Shown here: piece after piece, positions 6,200 to 33,017 of the stretch
Layout of the letters: every line of letters begins with the position of its first letter
Position numbering within the stretch: position 1 is the stretch's first letter
DNA from: an uncultured Bacteroidales bacterium
GTDB lineage: Bacteria; Bacteroidota; Bacteroidia; Bacteroidales; Muribaculaceae
DNA: 33,131 nt
Assembly (NCBI GenBank): GCA_902784675.1
Contig: CACZVR010000066.1
Coordinates: 1 to 33,131 of the forward strand
Direction: 5' to 3'
Made by a program: the position numbers and the translations under genes
Notes under the pieces: generated by a model
What the model saw: the letters and a program-made list of their open reading frames with translations, nothing else
Databases searched by the model: none
What the model was told of the DNA's origin: nothing

Positions 6200-6263
6200 G
6201 CTCATCTTTTCGTCTATTCGTCTACTTTATTATATATAAATAGACAAATAGATGAATAGATGG
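6200..6263. repeat. Inverted pair of 8-mer arrays
   Basis: The left arm has GCTCATCT, TTTCGTCT, ATTCGTCT (6200-6223). A 16-base AT centre follows (6224-6239). The right arm has ATAGACAA, ATAGATGA, ATAGATGG (6240-6263). The arms are imperfect reverse complements, each of exactly three units. Confidence 0.65.
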
Positions 6264-6514: not shown

Positions 6515-6587
6515 TTCAGGCTTTAGGTGTTAGGTGTTAGGTGTAGGGGCATCCGCCAGCTAAAGCCTAAAGACTAAAGACTAAAAC
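6515..6587. repeat. 7-mer inverted array with GGCATCCGC core
   Basis: The left arm units are TTCAGGC, TTTAGGT, GTTAGGT, GTTAGGT (6515-6542). The core GGCATCCGC is at 6548-6556. The right arm units are CTAAAGC, CTAAAGA, CTAAAGA, CTAAAAC (6560-6587). Left units carry TTAG and right units CTAA, so the arms are inverted relative to each other with a 7-base period. The ATPase gene begins 47 bp downstream. Confidence 0.7.
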
Positions 6588-6634
6588 GTCTGATGACTGA
6601 AATAACTTTATTAACTTAATAACTGTCTAATATT

Positions 6635-7597
6635 ATGATTGACCACGATTCATTTTTTGAAGAAATCAGGCTGCAAGCTCATCGCCCACCCGAGGAGCTG
6701 ATTCCTGACGAGTTCAATGAACTCAAAAAGAAATTTATCATTGACCGCAATGTCGAGTATCCCGACCCCGAGTACCTGATAGAGATTGGCGGTGTTCCCA
6801 CGATGCCCAAGGGCAACTTGGTGGCCTTGAGCGCCAAGTGGAAGAACGGAAAGACCTTCTTTTGCGACATTTTGGCTGCCATCTTCCTGGGCAGTGATCA
6901 ATTTGCCAACTGCCGCAGTTTGAAGGAAACGGGACGAGTCCTTTTTTGTGATACCGAGCAGGCCAGGAGCGACACGGCCCGCATCCACCGAATCATCGAG
7001 GCAATGATACCTGAAAATCGCTATGACGACAAAGAGGTGCACTGTCTGCGCGAAGCGGACATCAGTGAAGACATGGAACAGAATGGTGGCATCTCACGTT
7101 TTGATTTCATCAAGTGTTGCATCGAGCATGACCATCCCGATTTGGTCATCATCGACGGCATCGCCGACCTGATCTACAACTACAACGATGTGATAGAGTC
7201 GCAGGAGGTGGTCAACAAACTGGCTGCCATTGCCAACAAGCACAACTGCTGCATCGTGGTGGTCATGCACCAGAACAAGGGCCAAAAGGATAAGAACATG
7301 AAGGGTCACTTGGGCACGATGCTGTTCCAGAAGTGCAGCGATGTGTTCAACGTGGAGAAGTGCGGCAGCGTGTTTGTCGCCAGCCATGCCGTGAGCCGTC
7401 ACCGCAACTGCGAGGACATCGCCTTCAAACTCGATGCCAACGCCGTGCCCATGGATGCCGCAGCCGACCGTCAGCTGCAAGTGGAACTCAATCGCCAGCA
7501 AGCCGAGAGCAAGCTACGGGAAATGTTGGCTTGCGCAGTCCCCGAGGACGGTACTCCTGTCAAGCGCAGTGAGGCCGCCGAGCGCCTTGTCAGATAG
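6635..7597 (+). CDS. RepA-like RecA-fold ATPase (AAA_25 type), apparently truncated
   Basis: A 320-residue protein with a RecA-type core. Its Walker A reads AKWKNGKT (residues about 67-74), fitting [AG]xxxxGK[ST] with Ala in the first place. A Walker B strand follows (PDLVIIDGIADLI), then a sensor strand ending in VVVMHQNKG. Such proteins resemble plasmid RepA helicases and the ATPases of Bacteroidetes mobilisable elements. No primase, relaxase or integrase lies near it, so it seems an orphan. The C-terminus stops abruptly at KRSEAAERLVR, where relatives probably continue into a helix-turn-helix; the stop TAG is the first base triplet of an 8-mer array. It is probably a relic of a mobile element, or a stand-alone regulator; function uncertain. 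Confidence 0.7.
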   Translation: MIDHDSFFEEIRLQAHRPPEELIPDEFNELKKKFIIDRNVEYPDPEYLIEIGGVPTMPKGNLVALSAKWKNGKTFFCDILAAIFLGSDQFANCRSLKETGRVLFCDTEQARSDTARIHRIIEAMIPENRYDDKEVHCLREADISEDMEQNGGISRFDFIKCCIEHDHPDLVIIDGIADLIYNYNDVIESQEVVNKLAAIANKHNCCIVVVMHQNKGQKDKNMKGHLGTMLFQKCSDVFNVEKCGSVFVASHAVSRHRNCEDIAFKLDANAVPMDAAADRQLQVELNRQQAESKLREMLACAVPEDGTPVKRSEAAERLVR

Positions 7598-7618
7598 ACG
7601 AATAGATGAATCGACATT
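7595..7618 (+). repeat. 8-mer array overlapping a stop codon
   Basis: Units TAGACGAA, TAGATGAA, TCGACATT. The TAG of unit one is the stop codon of the RepA-like ATPase, the same arrangement as at the end of the GT-B gene. Confidence 0.6.
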
Positions 7619-7625
7619 TTGTGGA

Positions 7626-8900
7626 TTAGTCCAGGATGCGGGGCTCGGGAATTTCCTGGCCGCGGCAGTAGCGGACGGCAATATGGCGGTCGTCGCCCAC
7701 GTAGATGAAGCGTTCAAGGCGCTGAATCAGCGAGTAGTTATCGTGGTTGAGGTCGCTGTCGTCGATAACGAGGGCATCGAACTCGTAGCCCGGCTCAAAG
7801 CTGCCGACGCGCCCGAAGAAGCTGCCCGCCGACTTGGTGGCAATCCAGAAGGCCTCGGAGAGCGAGAGGAAGCGATCGTTCTTGTACTTCTGGTTGTAAA
7901 GTTTGCTCTCCTGAATGGCATAGACCATCACACGCATGATGCTCATGTCATGGCCTCCGCTGATGTCGCTGCCCAAACCCACCTTGATGCCCTTGTCGAG
8001 GAAGGCGCGGATGGGCGCGATACCGGTTATCAGGTTGATGTTCGATGTGGGGCAATGTGCCACCATCACGTTGCGACGGCTCATCAGTTCCAGTTCTTCG
8101 CCTTGAGAGAAGACGCAGTGTGCCATGATGGTGGGTGTCTGCCCGAACAGGCCATAGCGGTCGTAGGCGTCGCCATAGAAGCGGCTCTCGGGCTCCAACT
8201 CACGCACCAAGGCGATTTCGCCCAGGTTCTCGGACAAGTGCGACTGCACGGGCACCTGGTACTTTTGCGCCTGTTCGCCGCAAGCCCGCAGCATGGCCGA
8301 TGAGCACGAGGGAATGAAACGTGGCGTGAGGATGGGCCGGACGAGACCGTCGGGGTCGTTCCACTGGGCGATGAGCGCCTCGTTTGCGGTCACGGCTTCA
8401 TCGACAGTCTCAAGCAGGGCATCGATGGAGTTGCGGTCCATATTGACCTTGCCGACCAATGCGCCCATGCCTGCCTCGCGGAACAGTTCCATGAGCAGGC
8501 GCGTGCTCTCGAGATGGGTGGTGGCGAAGGTAGCGGTGCGCATCGTGCCATAGCGCCACAGGTCATGCACAAAGCGGCTGTACATGCGCCTTGCGTAGCG
8601 CGTGTCGCGGTACTTCGCCTCCTCGGGGAAGGTGTAGTTGTTGAGCCACTCCAGCAGTTCCACGTCCATGGAGATGCCCTGATTGCGGTACTGCCCCGCA
8701 TGCACATGCATATCGTTCATAGCTGGAATGAGCAGACAGTCACCGTAGTCAATCACCTCTTCGGGCTGCTGGCCAAAAGCGTCGGCACTACTGGCCACGT
8801 CCACAACGCGCCCGTTCTCGACGCCCACATAGCCATGTTCCACGACCTCAAACCGGTCCTTCTCACGAGTAAATATGATGTTAGCCTTGTATAGTTTCAT
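7626..8900 (-). CDS. guaD: Guanine deaminase
   Basis: A 424-residue zinc amidohydrolase that turns guanine into xanthine and ammonia in purine salvage. The metal ligands of the family are visible: H65 and H67 in MHVHAGQY, H221 in QSHLSE, H261 in MAHCVF and D312 in GSDISGG. The stretch ISMDVELLEWLNNYTFPEE (residues 76-94) closely matches the substrate-side signature of eukaryotic and bacterial guanine deaminases (LLEWLxxYTFPxE), and HCPTSNINL matches HCPxSNxxL. This favours guanine deaminase over other members of the chlorohydrolase group. The start at 8900 is 41 bases below a TATCTTTG box. It stands alone, convergent with the ATPase gene and divergent from pepD. Confidence 0.88.
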   Translation of the reverse strand: MKLYKANIIFTREKDRFEVVEHGYVGVENGRVVDVASSADAFGQQPEEVIDYGDCLLIPAMNDMHVHAGQYRNQGISMDVELLEWLNNYTFPEEAKYRDTRYARRMYSRFVHDLWRYGTMRTATFATTHLESTRLLMELFREAGMGALVGKVNMDRNSIDALLETVDEAVTANEALIAQWNDPDGLVRPILTPRFIPSCSSAMLRACGEQAQKYQVPVQSHLSENLGEIALVRELEPESRFYGDAYDRYGLFGQTPTIMAHCVFSQGEELELMSRRNVMVAHCPTSNINLITGIAPIRAFLDKGIKVGLGSDISGGHDMSIMRVMVYAIQESKLYNQKYKNDRFLSLSEAFWIATKSAGSFFGRVGSFEPGYEFDALVIDDSDLNHDNYSLIQRLERFIYVGDDRHIAVRYCRGQEIPEPRILD

Positions 8901-8940
8901 AATTTATAGTGAATCTTGATCTATGAAAATTTGCCGGGTG

Positions 8941-8948
8941 CAAAGATA
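8941..8948 (-). promoter_or_regulatory. -7 element of guaD
   Basis: The minus strand reads TATCTTTG, a perfect TAnnTTTG, followed by CACCCGG. A -33 TTTG at the right distance is not seen. Confidence 0.5.
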
Positions 8949-9000
8949 GTCTTTTTTTTTGCAATGATATAGTTGTTGGCCCAAATCCTGCGGGGCTAAT

Positions 9001-9041
9001 GCTAATTGCACGAAATATTAAAATTATTTCGTGCAATTAGC
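9001..9041. repeat. Perfect 16-bp inverted repeat, cruciform-like
   Basis: The arms GCTAATTGCACGAAAT (9001-9016) and ATTTCGTGCAATTAGC (9026-9041) enclose nine AT-rich bases. Weaker pairing (GCTAA at 8995-8999 with TTAGC at 9046-9050) extends it outward. No T run follows. Confidence 0.75.
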
Positions 9042-9238
9042 TTACTTAGCGAAATTCGCATTAAGAAACATACAGGGTCAACTCCTATATCGTTCCTTTT
9101 TTTTATTCATCTATGGTTTTTTATTGACAATTGGGTGGTGTTTCAAGAAAAAGTTGTAAATTAGCGGTGGCAAACCAAATGCTATGACAACAATTTCATT
9201 AACCACTTAATAACTAACAATTTAACCATTATTTTACA

Positions 9239-10717
9239 ATGCAAGTAAAAGATCTGAATCCGCAGGCAGTGTGGTCTATCTTTGACGAGATCACCAAGGT
9301 GCCCCGCCCCAGTGGCAATGAGGAAGGCAAGTTAGACAAGATCCGCGCATGGCTCGTGGATTTCGCCAAGAAGCACAATCTGGAGTACAAGATTGACAAG
9401 ACCGGCAACGTGGCCATCTTCAGGCCCGCCGCTCCCGGTTACGAGAAGTGCAAGGGCATCGTGCTGCAAGGTCACATGGATATGGTCGCCGAGAAAGGTC
9501 CCGGTTCGACCCACAACTTTGACACCGACCCCATCGAGACCATCATTGATGGCGACTGGGTGCGTGCCAACAACACCACGCTGGGTGCCGACGACGGTAT
9601 GGGCCTCGCCCTTGCCCTCGCTGCCATCACCGAGCCGACACTGCAATGCGGTCCCCTGGAGGCGCTTGCCACCGTTGACGAGGAAACCGGTCTGACCGGT
9701 GCCAGCAACATCGAGGCCGACATGCTCGTGGGCGACTACCTGCTCAACCTCGACGAGGAGGAAGACGCTACCATCACCATGGGTTGCGCCGGTGGTCTGG
9801 TGAGCATCTTCAAGTTCAACTACAAGCCCGAGGCTGCTCCCAAAGACCGCACCTACTTTGAGATCAAGTTTGAACACTTCCACGGTGGTCACAGCGGTGC
9901 CGACATCCACCTGGGCTTCGCCACCACGACCAAGCTGAGCAGCCGTCTGCTGTGGAACATCGGTGAGGAAATGGACTATGTGCTGGCCAAGATTGATGCA
10001 GGCAACCTGCACAACGCCATCGCACACGCCGCTACCCTGGTTATCGGTATCAAGCCCGAGGACAAGGAGAAACTGAGTGTGGTGCTCAACACCTTCATCG
10101 CCGAGGTGAAAAACGAGTACAAGCGCACCGAGCCCAAGATGGAGATCACCTGCCAGAGCGTTGACGCTCCCGAGACCATTATCGACACCGACACCGCCCG
10201 CCGCGTTGTCAATGCCGTTTATGCGGCTCCTCACGGCATCGCCGCCATGAGCATGGAGGTTCCGGGCCTGGTAGAGACCTCGACCAACCTTGCCAGCGTG
10301 AAGATGCGCGAGGGCAACCAAATCGTTGTGGAGATGTTCCACCGTTCGTCGCTCGAGAGCGGCAAGTATGACCTGACCCACAAGTGCGAGACCGTCTTCC
10401 GCATGGCAGGTGCCGACGAAATCATCAGCGAGGGCGGCTACCAGGGATGGGAACCCATCAGTGACAGCCATCTGCTGACCGTTGCCACCGAGCAGTGGGA
10501 GAAACTCTTCGGTGTTCGTCCCAATGTTCGCGCTATCCACGCCGGTCTGGAGTGCGGCCTGTTCCTGAAGGTGCGCCCCGACATGGAGATGATCAGCTTC
10601 GGTCCCACACTACAAGATGTACACTCGCCCGCCGAGCGTTGCCACATCCCCGCTGTGGAGAAGGCCTGGAAGCAAGTGCAAGCCGTCATCAAGGCCCTTG
10701 CCGAGGAGAGCAAGTAA
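9239..10717 (+). CDS. pepD: Aminoacyl-histidine dipeptidase (M20C)
   Basis: A 492-residue cytosolic zinc dipeptidase that cleaves dipeptides such as beta-Ala-His, close to the usual length of PepD (about 485). The dinuclear metal site is intact: H79 and D81 in GHMDM, D118/D119 in LGADDGMG, E148/E149 in DEETGL, and a C-terminal GPTLQDVHSPAER with the last His ligand. The lid domain lies between. The family feature ITKVPRPSGNEEG near the N-terminus is also present. It is preceded by about 340 bp without genes, so it likely has its own promoter. The DUF3127 gene follows on the same strand 104 bp later, behind a 7-mer repeat element. Confidence 0.93.
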   Translation: MQVKDLNPQAVWSIFDEITKVPRPSGNEEGKLDKIRAWLVDFAKKHNLEYKIDKTGNVAIFRPAAPGYEKCKGIVLQGHMDMVAEKGPGSTHNFDTDPIETIIDGDWVRANNTTLGADDGMGLALALAAITEPTLQCGPLEALATVDEETGLTGASNIEADMLVGDYLLNLDEEEDATITMGCAGGLVSIFKFNYKPEAAPKDRTYFEIKFEHFHGGHSGADIHLGFATTTKLSSRLLWNIGEEMDYVLAKIDAGNLHNAIAHAATLVIGIKPEDKEKLSVVLNTFIAEVKNEYKRTEPKMEITCQSVDAPETIIDTDTARRVVNAVYAAPHGIAAMSMEVPGLVETSTNLASVKMREGNQIVVEMFHRSSLESGKYDLTHKCETVFRMAGADEIISEGGYQGWEPISDSHLLTVATEQWEKLFGVRPNVRAIHAGLECGLFLKVRPDMEMISFGPTLQDVHSPAERCHIPAVEKAWKQVQAVIKALAEESK

Positions 10718-10727
10718 TTCATTTAAG

Positions 10728-10814
10728 TTTCTAGTCCTTAGTCCCTGGTTTCTAGTTGGCATCCGCAAACAAAGACTAACTACTAAGGACTAGGGACTAG
10801 AGACTAATAACTAA
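10728..10814. repeat. 7-mer inverted array with GGCATCCGC core
   Basis: The left arm has TTTCTAG, TCCTTAG, TCCCTGG, TTTCTAG (10728-10755). The core GGCATCCGC is at 10758-10766. The right arm has six in-register units, AGACTAA, CTACTAA, GGACTAG, GGACTAG, AGACTAA, TAACTAA (10773-10814). The 7-base phase holds through each arm. It ends eight bases before the ATG of the DUF3127 gene, so the right arm should be in that gene's leader. Confidence 0.75.
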
Positions 10815-10821
10815 AAAAACA

Positions 10822-11238
10822 ATGGACATCAAAGGTAAAATCATACAGAAACTGGATCCGCAGAGCGGCACCTCCAAGGCTGGTAACGCCTGGAAGAAAC
10901 AGGAGTATGTGCTGGAGACGATGGACAGTTTTCCCCGCAAGGTGAAGTTTGACTTCTTTGGGGACCGTGCTGACCAGTACCCTCTCGAGGTGGGCGACGT
11001 GATCACGTTGAGCTATGACATCGAGAGCCGTGAGTTCAATGGCCGCTGGTACACCGACATCCGCGGTTTCAAGGCAGTGAAAGAGGATCCCGCTGTTGGT
11101 GGAGCACCCGCTCCCTACGCTCCCGCTGCCGGCGAGCCCGCGCCCGCCCCTGCTCCTGGAGCCGACGGCATGCAAGCACCGCCTCCTGCCGACACCGCGT
11201 TTGACCAGGGCGGCATGGGCGATGACCTGCCCTTCTAA
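10822..11238 (+). CDS. DUF3127 OB-like protein with SSB-like acidic tail
   Basis: A 138-residue protein. Residues 1-92 form a DUF3127 domain (MDIKGKIIQKLDPQSG, WKKQEYVLET, GDVITLSYDIESREFNGRWYTDI), a small beta-barrel family of Bacteroidetes thought to have an OB-like fold. Residues 93-128 are a Pro/Ala/Gly linker. The protein ends in GGMGDDLPF. That layout (OB-like domain, flexible linker, acidic tail ending in Pro-Phe) is the layout of single-stranded DNA-binding protein, whose tail DDDIPF docks repair and replication proteins such as RecQ. I infer a DNA-linked role; it is not proved. A clear terminator follows. Its start is immediately below a 7-mer repeat element. Confidence 0.8.
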   Translation: MDIKGKIIQKLDPQSGTSKAGNAWKKQEYVLETMDSFPRKVKFDFFGDRADQYPLEVGDVITLSYDIESREFNGRWYTDIRGFKAVKEDPAVGGAPAPYAPAAGEPAPAPAPGADGMQAPPPADTAFDQGGMGDDLPF

Positions 11239-11263
11239 ACAAGAAGATTACACTGAATAACAC

Positions 11264-11298
11264 AACCGCTCGGGAGTCAGTCCCGGGCGGTTTGTTTT
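11264..11298 (+). terminator. Rho-independent terminator
   Basis: AACCGC-CGGGA pairs with TCCCG-GCGGTT around GTCAG, followed by TGTTTT. It lies 26 bases after the DUF3127 stop. Confidence 0.8.
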
Positions 11299-11315
11299 GG
11301 CGTTATCGTGAGGAA

Positions 11316-11347
11316 TAGACAAATAGATGACTAGACGAATGGACTGA
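11316..11347 (+). repeat. 8-mer array
   Basis: Units TAGACAAA, TAGATGAC, TAGACGAA, TGGACTGA in strict register, between the terminator of the DUF3127 gene and the end of the convergent AlbA_2 gene. Confidence 0.6.
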
Positions 11348-11362
11348 AAACGGGATGCGGTG

Positions 11363-12010
11363 TCAGTTGCCCACGATGAGGCATTTGCCGTCGTGATACT
11401 CGAGGGAGAGGACGCCCATGCTGTGGAGGGCGACAACGGTCTGCATCGCGGTTTCCTCGCTAATGTGGGCCAGTTTCATGTAGCCCTCGAGGGTGATGCC
11501 GCCGTGGTTGCGCAAGTAGTCGAGCAGCACCTGCTCACGCTCGCTGTAGCTGATGGTCTCGTCAGGGGGACAGTCATCGCCGACGGTTTTCTGCAAGATG
11601 CGCTCATGCAGACGGCTGGCCAGCACGTTCTCGTCGGCAACGCGGTAATAGACGTGCCACACGCCATTGTCGTCCTGGGCCTGAACGGGTTTTTCGTCGG
11701 CCTCGGCGATATCGGCCTTGACGACCGACTTGCCATTGACATTGAAGACCTTGAACGTCACCTGCTGCTCGGGGCTGCAGTACATCTGTGCCGCGGTCTC
11801 GATCATGTAGATCTCCTCCTCGCTGCGCACCCCGGCAATGTTGCCGTTGTCCTTCACGCCGATGAGCAGGTGGCCGCCACTGTTGTTGGCAAAGGCGGCG
11901 ATGGAGCGGGCAATCTTGCGGGCATCGGTAATCTGGTATTTGAAATCCTGATGCTCGTGCTCGCCCTCAAGAATGAGGTCTTGTATATAATGGCTTTTCT
12001 TGGGCTTCAT
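11363..12010 (-). CDS. AlbA_2/Schlafen-type putative DNA-binding protein
   Basis: A 215-residue protein. Residues about 12-120 match the AlbA_2 (Schlafen AAA_4-related) domain: LEGEHEHQDFKYQITD (the family's ExxxEFK start), IARSIAAFANNSGGHLLIGV and a KDNGNIAGV turn. Residues about 140-215 look like a winged helix (SEREQVLLDYLRNHGG, then ETAMQTVVALHSMGVLSLEY). In bacteria these proteins are usually called transcriptional regulators or ATP-binding proteins, and some belong to defence loci; nothing here supports a defence role. It stands alone between an 8-mer array on one side and the 9-mer array on the other. Nucleic-acid binding is likely and the target is unknown. Confidence 0.78.
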   Translation of the reverse strand: MKPKKSHYIQDLILEGEHEHQDFKYQITDARKIARSIAAFANNSGGHLLIGVKDNGNIAGVRSEEEIYMIETAAQMYCSPEQQVTFKVFNVNGKSVVKADIAEADEKPVQAQDDNGVWHVYYRVADENVLASRLHERILQKTVGDDCPPDETISYSEREQVLLDYLRNHGGITLEGYMKLAHISEETAMQTVVALHSMGVLSLEYHDGKCLIVGN

Positions 12011-12024
12011 CTTCTATAAAAAAA

Positions 12025-12121
12025 CTACGAATTACGCGAATTTTACAAATTTGGCATCCGCTTTCTCATTATTGCCAATTACTCTAATTGCCGCTATTAA
12101 AAACTACAAATTATGCAAATT
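12025..12121. repeat. 9-mer array with GGCATCCGC core
   Basis: The left arm has CTACGAATT, ACGCGAATT, TTACAAATT (12025-12051). The core GGCATCCGC is at 12053-12061. On the right come AATTACTCT, AATTGCCGC (12077-12094), inverted relative to the left, then TATTAAAAA and two units again in the left orientation, CTACAAATT and ATGCAAATT (12104-12121). All right-hand units share one 9-base phase. It fills most of the 156 bp between the AlbA_2 and SGNH genes. Confidence 0.65.
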
Positions 12122-12166
12122 CGCTGATTATCAATCAGTTGAATCTACACAATTCGCAGTTAAAAG

Positions 12167-13345
12167 TCAACGGGGGTCGTTCACACCAGGTTCCTGCGGA
12201 ATGGGGGTGCCGTCGAGCACCGCGCGCAGGTAAGGCTCCAGTTTCTGGGCATACCACCAGAAGCCGATGTCGGTCAAGTGGATGCCATCGACGGTGCCCT
12301 CGTTGTTGGGGCCGTAGAGGTCTTTGCAGGTGATATAGTAGAGGTTATCGGGATTGTCGGCTTTCAGCTTCAAGTAGTTCTTGTGATACTCGTTGTTCTT
12401 GGCAGGCAAGTATTGGCTGTAGAAAGCGCTGTACTTGGCATAGCTGTACATCTGGCCCTCGACCATGAAGATGGGCACCTCGGGGCGCAACGTGCGCAGG
12501 ATGTTGACGAAGCCATAGGTCACCGTGTCGCACATGTCCTTGGTGCAATTGGGGATGGGGTCCAAGATGTAGGCAGCCACATCGGGGATAGACGCCATGG
12601 CCTGGGCCATGCAGGAATCCATCTTGCCCTCGCCGCTGAATCCCAGATTCACACACTCAACATCCAGATCACGCTGAATGATGCTTGTGGCCACCATGCC
12701 GGGGCGGCAGGCACAGCCACCCTGCAAGATGCTGGTGCCGTAGAAGATGAACTTCTTGCCCTCCTTGGGAGAGTCAAGCATGGGCTGCATGATGACCGCA
12801 GTGCTGTCAACACCGATTTCAATCCACCGCACACCGTCATAAAGGGGCAGATAGATCATGTACTCATGCATCTTGCCATCGAGACGGTCCACATAGACCT
12901 TGCTCTGGATGGAGTCCTGACGGGGACGGATGTCATTGTCGATGCGCACGGGACGGTTGCAGTTCACAAACTGCCAGCACTGGGTGTCCTTGTCCCAGAT
13001 ATAGAGGTCGGTGCCCTTGATGCCAGTGTCGGCCATGTGCATCATGTGCATGTTGGTCAACAAGTTGTAACGCACGGCAATCGCCGTTGAGTTGGTGGCG
13101 AAACGGATGGCCTTTCCGCTGGTGCACGAAGCGCGGTCCCACAGTGTGGAGCGCACATTGCCGTAAAACTCCAGAGGGATGCGCGACTTGAGCGTGCGGT
13201 CAAACGCCCAGTTGATCAGGCGGTAATGCATCGCGTCCACATAGCGCAGCGTGTCTTTGTCGGTGAAATCCTGGGCACGCGAGGTCACGGGGACCAATGC
13301 CACAAACAAGGCTGCAAGAGCCAATACTATTCCTTTCAGTCTCAT
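12167..13345 (-). CDS. SGNH/GDSL hydrolase, probable secreted esterase
   Basis: A 392-residue exported protein with a signal peptide ending near TSRAQ (residue 25). Residues about 35-180 form an N-terminal beta domain (SGNH_hydro_N type). The catalytic domain follows: block I is GTSILQGGCA, with Ser as nucleophile, in place of GDSx; block II contains GFSGEG; block III is PIPNC, with an Asn where the oxyanion Asn is expected; block V is DGIHLTDIG, supplying Asp and His. Such enzymes remove acetyl or other acyl groups from polysaccharides. It is last in a minus-strand run, 27 bp after the PHP gene. Substrate unknown. Confidence 0.85.
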   Translation of the reverse strand: MRLKGIVLALAALFVALVPVTSRAQDFTDKDTLRYVDAMHYRLINWAFDRTLKSRIPLEFYGNVRSTLWDRASCTSGKAIRFATNSTAIAVRYNLLTNMHMMHMADTGIKGTDLYIWDKDTQCWQFVNCNRPVRIDNDIRPRQDSIQSKVYVDRLDGKMHEYMIYLPLYDGVRWIEIGVDSTAVIMQPMLDSPKEGKKFIFYGTSILQGGCACRPGMVATSIIQRDLDVECVNLGFSGEGKMDSCMAQAMASIPDVAAYILDPIPNCTKDMCDTVTYGFVNILRTLRPEVPIFMVEGQMYSYAKYSAFYSQYLPAKNNEYHKNYLKLKADNPDNLYYITCKDLYGPNNEGTVDGIHLTDIGFWWYAQKLEPYLRAVLDGTPIPQEPGVNDPR

Positions 13346-22290: not shown

Positions 22291-22341
22291 TATCAATAAC
22301 TTGTTTTGATTATCAAACGAATGAATTATCATTGAAATTGC

Positions 22342-22415
22342 AAAATTAAAGATAATTTCCCTATTCATCAAACAAGCCAAAATTAAAGATAATTTCCCTA
22401 TTCATCAAACAAGCC
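22342..22415. repeat. 37-bp perfect tandem duplication carrying a -7 promoter box
   Basis: Copy 1 is 22342-22378 and copy 2 is 22379-22415, identical. Each copy holds a minus-strand TATCTTTA (22354-22347 and 22391-22384), close to TAnnTTTG. The M16 start is 57 bases below the nearer one, so the M16 gene may have two tandem promoters. A -33 TTTG at 19-21 bp is not clear. Confidence 0.9.
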
Positions 22416-22440
22416 ACTTTTTTTTCACATCACACACAAC

Positions 22441-32899: not shown

Positions 32900-33008
32900 A
32901 TTTCGGGCCATTTTTTGCCCTAACGGGCATCAAGGATTTTTTCGTTTTTTGTTTTAGACTTTAGAATGGAGGGACTGGATGATCTGGATCGACGGGAGAA
33001 GACGGGAG

Positions 33009-33017
33009 GCATCCGCA
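33009..33017 (+). repeat. Fourth GGCATCCGC core, beside the IS3 end
   Basis: The 9-bp core seen in the 7-mer and 9-mer elements occurs again here, 20 bp from the IS3 terminal repeat. It is followed by ATTCC and GGAAT arms (33018-33022 and 33029-33033) but no clear periodic array. Confidence 0.4.

Follow-up and report, generated by a model that had tools for sequence, protein, structure and literature searches.

Stop- and start-anchored heptad arrays of changing dialect in the gene spacers of a Muribaculaceae genome

Many of the short spacers between genes in this genome, most likely that of a ruminant-gut Muribaculaceae MAG, and in its relatives hold short periodic cassettes with a recurrent layout. 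In its full form a cassette runs from the stop codon of one gene through a few nucleotides, a series of TNAG-type heptads, a centre (often (T)GGCATCCGCnTTC), a series of CTNA-type heptads and a few further nucleotides to the start codon of the next gene. These arrays are replaced at orthologous spacers and their dialects are genome-specific; spacer sequence is replaced fast while the rules of position stay, and we know of no repeat family that explains this combination. We propose, with a probability of roughly 0.4, that the cassettes are a positioned spacer family whose CTNA array serves the initiation or re-initiation of translation. The sites in the window (the whole 33,131-nt stretch of DNA analysed here) are tentatively regarded as members of a large cassette family in spacers that would be transcribed. 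How Bacteroidales ribosomes recognise the internal starts of operons is an open question on which this motif bears, and arrays placed a few bases before starts, with many dialects in the same spacer, amount to a natural experiment that makes the question directly testable.

The window contains four copies of the 9-bp core word GGCATCCGC, all on the + strand, as are the arrays described below. At site 1, TNAG-type 7-mers (TTAGGTG, three copies) form a left arm at 6521–6547, the core occupies 6548–6556, and CTNA-type 7-mers (CTAAAGA) form a right arm at 6560–6586; Tandem Repeats Finder reported 3.1 copies of TTAGGTG at 6523–6544 and 3.7 copies of CTAAAGA at 6560–6585. The right arm ends ~48 nt short of the ATG at 6635, more distant than is typical, and this long, divergent spacer is an exception to the rule of start proximity. 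At site 2, a left arm of TNAG-type 7-mers in the CTAGTCC dialect (10725–10757) starts ~8 nt past the stop codon of an M20 peptidase gene (9239–10717), followed by the core (10758–10766) and by a right arm of CTNA-type 7-mers of the form RACTARR (10774–10815; a 7-mer array at 10774–10807 in Tandem Repeats Finder), which ends ~6 nt ahead of the ATG of a DUF3127 gene (10822–11238); by eye, no T run of the sort expected of a Rho-independent terminator follows the palindrome on the sense strand. Site 3 lies between a Schlafen/AlbA_2 gene (11363–12010, − strand) and a GDSL gene (12167–13345, − strand), and here a 9-mer array (ACTACGAATTACGCGAATTTTACAAATTT; 12022–12052) adjoins the core (12053–12061). 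A second 9-mer array at 12098–12160, judged by eye to be a direct-orientation relative of the first, has its own palindrome with sequence after it. Inverted arms, which the initial annotation described at all three sites (at the 9-mer site for the first two right-hand units only), are present at sites 1 and 2 and in part only at site 3. A 9-mer array does precede the core at site 3, yet from ~12098 onward, over most of the right side, that array recurs in direct orientation, and the inverted pair that looks better by eye adjoins the core instead of surrounding it. The fourth core (33008–33016) has flanks whose periodicity is, by eye, weak at best. Rfam gave no matches at gathering score within the window.

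Against the four copies of GGCATCCGC (starts 6548, 10758, 12053 and 33008), 0.53 were expected in the window, and at least four were reached in 0 of 100 dinucleotide shuffles, which upholds the earlier impression that an identical core at three intergenic sites was unlikely to match by chance. The 2.7-Mb genome holds 134 copies, against 8 of the same word spelled backwards. Among 84 distinct copies (the first 81 of 100 listed from the genome's 134, plus the window's four, minus one duplicate), 54 were intergenic, 27 genic and 3 at stretch edges, with a noncoding share of ~13% in the 432 kb surveyed (simple custom gene caller). Periodic flanks were defined by a score of at least 9 at lag 7, 8 or 9 within 60 nt on either side. 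Of the 57 cores that fell outside called genes 39 had such flanks, compared with 0 of 27 genic cores and 44 of 352 random intergenic positions. The core is in excess between genes and other copies also have periodic arms. The data bear out a recurrent intergenic element with a common core, inverted arms in register with that core and fast-changing unit sequences. Across 101 genomes of the genus, the core ranges from 7 to 273 copies per genome; its orientation relative to transcription showed no significant bias in three genomes (29 same, 20 opposite; p 0.25). Where it is found in a cassette it sits between the TNAG and CTNA arrays, and it is one part of a wider array family.

In co-directional spacers the heptads have a common skeleton, with TNAG units after the stop and mirror-image CTNA units before the start. 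The chirality is fixed: AG[TG]-type heptads fall on the left (26 versus 1) and [AC]CT-type heptads on the right (22 versus 0). This runs counter to the suggestion that a protein or RNA reads spacing rather than sequence, which is not right as it was put. Triple CTNA heptads in the tandem spacers of the genome end at a median of 5 nt ahead of the start (16/16 within 26 nt) and triple TNAG heptads set in at a median of 4 nt past the stop (17/18 within 20 nt), and shuffling would place such triples in 0.4 and 0.6, respectively, of 268 own spacers. Ten of the 33 own spacers with triple heptads were two-armed, as were 26 spacers in G009 and 9 in G025, two congeners; the TNAG array preceded the CTNA array in 43 of these 45 cases (9/10, 26/26 and 8/9, in the same order). 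Within 30 nt, CTNA triples were near the start in 31/40 cases in G009 and 8/12 in G025, and TNAG triples near the stop in 27/29 and 9/12, frequencies that are inflated because the stretches from both congeners, like some of our own, were picked for containing cores.

Arrays occurred in 26 of 187 tandem, 6 of 37 convergent and 1 of 44 divergent own spacers (p 0.02). Periodicity was detected in 36 of 252 own spacers, where 0.4 would be expected, the best lag being 7 in 17 of them, 14 in 8, 9 in 10 and 8 in 1. The N of CTNA was A in 169 units, G in 77, T in 70 and C in 9, and the commonest of 434 units were ACTAAAA (70), ACTAAGG (44), ACTTAAA (37) and ACTGAAA (34). Numerous spacers carry one arm alone, or 9-mers in place of heptads; the 9-mer arrays fill the same spacers, and the skeleton is not clearly common to both.

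Four orthologous spacers, each in ~30 forms drawn from related and therefore not independent genomes, hold arrays in differing 7- or 9-mer dialects, and the presence of differing dialects in the same gap points to a real gene-spacing element with fast turnover. Median identity among distinct spacers at one site was 0.57–0.60, compared with 0.50–0.54 for shuffled copies. The M20–DUF3127 spacer exists in 33 distinct orthologous forms with arms of several dialects; the core (at most one mismatch) was found on the + strand only in 20, in both orientations in 1, on the − strand only in 0 and not at all in 12. Single genomes hold several dialects. Matches to the dialect AGTTTAGAGTTTAGNG (overlapping matches within one array counted separately) numbered 0 in our genome, 33 in G025, 95 in G021 and 114 in G109, and it was present in 48 of the 101 genomes and absent from 53. 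On the tree of the flanking genes, dialect changed about 14 times (minimum possible 5; shuffled 18.2), a figure that is approximate because labels were set by word counts, with L104 (TCAG left arm, mixed right) labelled F4 and L107 being mixed. One form, L119, contains a nested copy, and two others, L111 and L114, are nearly empty at 24 and 27 nt; the latter are too diverged for a target duplication to show by eye.

The initial annotation had suggested growth from the core outward, and several observations speak against it. Many arrays, and even whole palindromes, have no core; the arms take their position instead from where the neighbouring genes have their stop and start codons; another spacer (L190:3403, in which the core of our genome has one mismatch) has the core in opposite orientations in two species; and variants in a left arm are without a mirror in the right arm opposite. 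Copying between arms was rejected, as left-arm 8-mers did not recur more often in the right arm at the same locus than in right arms at other loci (0.212 v 0.219, 0.088 v 0.250 and 0.032 v 0.077). Arm dialects agreed at the N position in 29 of 49 cases over four orthologous sites, compared with 16.4 expected, an excess that is overstated because the rows are related and that comes mostly from the M20 spacer (17/21 versus 9.1); own spacers showed no excess (13/17 versus 13.4). Stem mismatches comprised 30 G.U and 41 A.C in the M20 spacer and 22 and 24 in 24 own tandem palindromes of any kind; as G.U shows no excess over A.C, RNA hairpins are not evidently under selection.

A different account, which we hold to be somewhat unlikely, is that the cassettes are REPIN/MITE-like mobile palindromes, copied by a transposase as hairpins and tolerated in promoterless spacers with no host function. 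Dispersed dialect copies with a common core, the wide range of core numbers across the genus, the nested copy and the nearly empty spacers all fit such movement, and REPs, too, are found chiefly where the neighbouring genes are unidirectional or convergent (PMC3733652). The order of core-adjacent units is kept among 14 copies of one G009 dialect (0.839 v 0.768; 0/300 permutations), but only weakly in the TTAGG dialect, where permutations scored as high in 8/300 cases for G009 and 34/300 for our genome. Insertion by itself, moreover, would not set arms near both a stop and a start. A RAYT (Y1_Tnp) was rejected as the mover: over 101 genomes, core count did not correlate with Y1_Tnp genes (rho 0.13, p 0.21), and among the three of four own Y1_Tnp genes checked, two lacked cores and triple heptads alike within 600 nt and the third had its sole core inside the gene itself, with no flanking repeats within 600 nt. 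No mover for the cassettes was found among the Y1_Tnp genes of the 101 genomes, and around 58 cores the REP tags GTAG and CGTC were rarer than in shuffles (34 v 53.9 and 29 v 43.2, counted irrespective of position).

Neutral slippage of short tandem repeats, with dialects arising by chance, appears improbable. In most genomes, 7-base repeats outnumber the other classes of long simple repeats (Mrazek 2007, cited in PMC4679880), and the number of units does vary between relatives; fixed chirality, a skeleton and anchoring on stop and start all tell against it, local slippage alone would not give dialects and a core common to many loci, and 7-nt steps are not evident in the gaps, of which 23 of 144 (at least 3 nt long) measured 7, 14 or 21. 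We give about the same low credence to the idea that stop-bearing heptads at 7-nt pitch cover three frames and halt stray ribosomes at both gene ends. Sense stops are present in 89% of the units on the CTNA side and in 84% of those on the TNAG side, exceeding column shuffles on the CTNA side (0.894 v 0.844, 0/1000; distinct units 0.723 v 0.640, 29/1000), but the excess is not sense-specific, because the antisense strand shows stops as well, in 80% of CTNA units and, on the TNAG side, above shuffles (0.763 v 0.650; 0/1000). On the stop side, TCAG, which has no stop, outnumbers TGAG by 27 to 6, and a 9-nt pitch stays in a single frame. Arrayed sites for a sequence-specific protein that binds double-stranded DNA would suit a palindromic, strand-symmetric skeleton and the lack of RNA pairing bias in the mismatch counts above; such a role is less probable still, given that arrays are rare in divergent (promoter) spacers and that one genome can have multiple dialects.

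Shine-Dalgarno leaders are mostly absent from Bacteroidales. Under the preferred reading, a role of the start-proximal array in translation, the arrays would be transcribed within the spacer mRNA, and their functional part would be the CTNA array adjoining the start codon, which may offer ribosomes on the mRNA a linear series of landing or standby sites for initiation or re-initiation; TAACTGA repeats have been proposed to work in this way. The cassette would then disperse as a palindrome, with the TNAG arm and core as its passenger half, and new dialects could spread among the spacers of one genome and displace older ones, presumably because the skeleton is all that an array needs to get right. 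We think it unlikely that stop- and start-anchored arrays in the spacers of cotranscribed genes are written or maintained by a system that acts in trans and is specific to the species, with a common skeleton (CTNA/TNAG; 7-nt, at times 9-nt pitch), dialects set per genome and the spacer rewritten as species diverge.

Several known systems resemble the cassettes in part. Cyanobacterial STRR heptamers also form intergenic heptamer arrays; to our knowledge, they have neither inverted arms nor a core. The open-access matches listed held nothing on Muribaculaceae spacers. REP/REPIN elements (Di Nocera 2013, PMC3733652) are likewise small dispersed intergenic palindromes in tandem and convergent spacers, with several families per genome, whereas the present arms are periodic, with no GTAG/CGTC enrichment and no RAYT link found. 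The BrickBuilt MITE of Porphyromonas gingivalis (PMC4596501) also lies between genes in a member of the Bacteroidales and has inverted ends around a tandem repeat; unlike in our cassettes, the repeat measures 23 nt, one strain has 19 copies, and the nearest genes are 49–591 nt away. The closest known kind is the TAACTGA heptamer repeats upstream of starts (MacGregor 2015), which the portion of PMC4679880 consulted describes as intergenic, mostly forward, in 2–6 copies that end one to several nt before starts, scattered in phylogeny and present in a few Bacteroidetes. Here too the heptamers are direct and intergenic (lag 7 or 14 in 25 of 252 own spacers), the forward arrays end close upstream of starts (16/16 own), and CTNA-arm words such as AACTGAA are nearly the same word. 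The TAACTGA repeats, however, consist chiefly of one heptamer in one orientation, with inverted sets in 1 of 170, whereas TAACTGA is not the favoured word here, several dialects occur and inverted sets are frequent (10/33 own spacers two-armed); a core, for which that portion gives no counterpart, 9-mers, a mirror array after stops and differing orthologous arrays further set the present family apart. We read the cassettes as a palindromic, fast-turnover variant of TAACTGA-type repeats, the variant being new.

Three cores with periodic flanks, at 6548 (site 1), 10758 (site 2) and 12053 (site 3), are present in the window, as the initial annotation had claimed in describing inverted arms around an identical 9-bp sequence between genes; at site 3 the 9-mer array left of the core was borne out, but the right side is mostly in direct rather than inverted orientation. 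A fourth core lies at 33008. The genome-wide search that the annotation called for found the core 134 times in the window's own genome, compared to 8 times for the reversed word. Among 84 distinct copies examined (81 from the top of a list of 100 places, together with the four in the window, less one duplicate), 54 lay between genes, 27 within genes and 3 at the edge of a stretch. The proposed check of the flanks found periodicity at 39 of the 57 copies that lie outside called genes and at 0 of the 27 genic ones, compared to 44 of 352 random intergenic points. The core extends past 9 bp as (T)GGCATCCGCnTTC followed by T-rich sequence, with C at +12 in 44 of 58 copies. Three fetched loci (L016, L041 and L070) hold chains in which a 9-mer array and core are followed by a T-rich stretch and then by another 9-mer array and core, with approximately 50-60 nt per step; in locus L259 and at G025:C12:6518-6730, in a congener, cores recur at regular intervals (76-bp and 51-bp steps), array and core being duplicated together as longer tandem units.

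The core is part of a wider array system and not the whole story. Strong short-period arrays were found in 36 of 252 spacers of the own genome (0.4 expected), in a set of 432 kb partly selected for holding cores; best lags were 7 or 14 (25 spacers), 9 (10) and 8 (1), and about 20 of the 36 have no exact core. By-eye comparison revealed that the unit families, which we refer to as dialects, share one skeleton, with CTNA, or the mirror-image TNAG, recurring at 7-nt intervals. Arm types were compared at 144 distinct cores from three genomes, 111 of which, genic copies included, had no clear heptad arm on either side: the left arm was of AG[TG] type in 26 cases and [AC]CT type in 1, and the right arm was of [AC]CT type in 22 and AG[TG] type in 0. 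C is scarce at the N of CTNA (9/325), and the stop-proximal arm mirrors this word (TCAG 27 vs TGAG 6). Other repeats in the window include partly inverted 8-base arrays, TCTATTCG / AATAGATG, at 614-648, 6205-6262, 7594-7615 and ~11308-11345, the last adjoining GGGATGCGG, which may be an opposite-strand variant of the core; a perfect 37-bp tandem duplication of 2.1 copies at 22341-22416; and a perfect, non-periodic 17-bp stem, GCTAATTGCACGAAATA, with a 7-nt loop at ~8999-9042.

The two skeletons occupy opposite ends of spacers. In the 187 tandem spacers of the own genome scored for triple heptads, CTNA arrays stopped short of the start codon by a median of 5 nt (16/16 spacers within 26 nt) and TNAG arrays followed the stop codon at a median distance of 4 nt (17/18 within 20 nt); shuffling all 268 own spacers predicts 0.4 and 0.6 such spacers, respectively. 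TNAG came first in 9 of the 10 own spacers with both arms. In the congeners G009 and G025, a 30-nt limit took in 31/40 and 8/12 CTNA arrays when measured from the start codon and 27/29 and 9/12 TNAG arrays when measured from the stop codon, and the order was the same in 26/26 and 8/9 spacers. Of the own genome's spacers, 26 of the 187 tandem ones carried arrays, as did 6 of the 37 convergent ones and 1 of the 44 divergent ones (tandem plus convergent vs divergent, p 0.02). Site 1, in a divergent spacer of over 700 nt that lies outside these tallies, is an exception to the position rule.

Orthologous spacers differ markedly in their arrays. At site 2, between the M20 peptidase and DUF3127 genes, 28 of 33 distinct forms were periodic (0.1 expected), with units including CTAGTCC, GTTTAGA, TTTTCAG, GTAAGTT and ATAGTTG; two forms were nearly empty (24 and 27 nt) and some were unrelated. 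Three spacers of a second locus had 15/30, 21/31 and 24/31 periodic forms (1.2, 0.1 and 0.2 expected), again with differing unit families, some of them 9-mers; a fourth, longer spacer (4 forms) showed no periodicity. Inverted families also differed between species, by eye, among 30 forms of the site 3 spacer, and a 38-74 nt spacer (L192:11495) held two different 7-mers and a 9-mer across the own genome, G009 and G025. The proteins encoded on either side of the window's two spacers mostly shared 81-98% identity with those of the own genome, and matching DNA at the second locus, for which 29 congener loci were fetched, was 81-90% identical. Distinct same-site spacers had median identities of 0.57-0.60, compared to 0.50-0.54 for shuffled copies, and 273/496, 310/465, 268/378 and 319/435 pairs did not exceed the shuffled 95th percentile. 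A 32-row tree built from the flanking genes required 14 dialect changes (minimum 5, shuffled mean 18.2), and 0 of 200 shuffles needed as few: dialects are common to relatives, yet frequently switched. Array replacement is not genome-wide, since L398:6395 with L242 keeps its dialect between the own genome and G025. One 220-nt site 2 spacer (L119) holds nested copies: a CTAGTCC element there has a TTAGGCT array and a reversed core within its right arm.

Several dialects stand side by side in one genome. In the genus, 48 of the 101 genomes examined carry AGTTTAGAGTTTAGNG, with 0 matches in the own genome and 114 in G109. A short hairpin module resembling GCGAGCGYTGCTCGC often lies ahead of the arm in the GTTTAGAG dialect (site 2 spacers L101-L142, and L231-L260). 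Core counts across these 101 genomes ranged from 7 to 273, with a median of 136 (minimum 53) in the 40 genomes with DUF3127 protein identity of at least 76% and 29 (maximum 93) in the remaining 61, which include 6 without a DUF3127 match. Best named matches of the neighbouring M20 peptidase were MAGs from the ruminant gut, assigned to Muribaculaceae, Prevotellaceae, Porphyromonadaceae or Bacteroidales, and on this basis we read the window as probably Muribaculaceae. In 24 genomes from 24 other families of the order the core occurred 1 to 52 times, in several cases two- to eightfold or more above the reversed-word control (e.g., 52 vs 19, 37 vs 8, 24 vs 3). Of 198 genomes from the order, three contained CCTAAAGCCTAAAGCC: the own genome (20 matches) and two from other families, G139 (3) and G269 (7). 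TTAGGCT words in the latter two (L441, L442, L444, L445) apparently adjoin gene ends by eye, most clearly at L444, closely after a stop codon; the core was absent from all four loci so inspected.

We tentatively propose, at a probability of roughly 0.4, that the arrays act in translation. A start-proximal CTNA array of two or more heptads was present in 28/33, 12/30, 25/31 and 24/31 forms of four spacers and is frequent across dialects and species; it sits where operon mRNA would be read. Selection on the start side, with the stop side following, would predict the mirrored stop-proximal word. The scarcity of N=C is compatible with a word recognised by a protein or with a stop function in all frames; a stop-codon excess also appears antisense on the TNAG side, and is therefore undecisive on the latter.

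One may instead postulate that these are plain mobile palindromes, which we consider rather unlikely. Unit order beside the core was kept among 14 copies of the G009 TCAG dialect (0/300 permutations as high) and only weakly in the TTAGG dialect (8/300 in G009, 34/300 in the own genome), suggesting that some dialects spread as copies while others look reshuffled. Core orientation was constant at site 2 (20 forms only +, 0 only -, 1 both, 12 without core), flipped at L190:3403 and not generally tied to transcription (29 vs 20), so that arm rewriting and cassette replacement are both possible. Arm dialects agreed beyond expectation at site 2 (17/21 cases, 9.1 expected) but not in own spacers (13/17, 13.4 expected), and we saw no sign of arm-to-arm copying. 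As far as tested, tag count and RAYT spoke against REP elements, and Rfam gave no match in the window. Nor was selection for an RNA hairpin visible, stem mismatches being G.U 30 vs A.C 41 at site 2 and 22 vs 24 across all kinds of palindrome in own tandem spacers.

In the literature searched we found no precedent for a core common to many sites, a mirrored arm on the stop side, 7- and 9-nt pitches occurring together or dialect change at orthologous spacers. Heptamer repeats upstream of start codons are already published, and the start-proximal CTNA array of the proposed translational reading has the same placement as the TAACTGA repeats for which MacGregor proposed a role in translation (PMC4679880).
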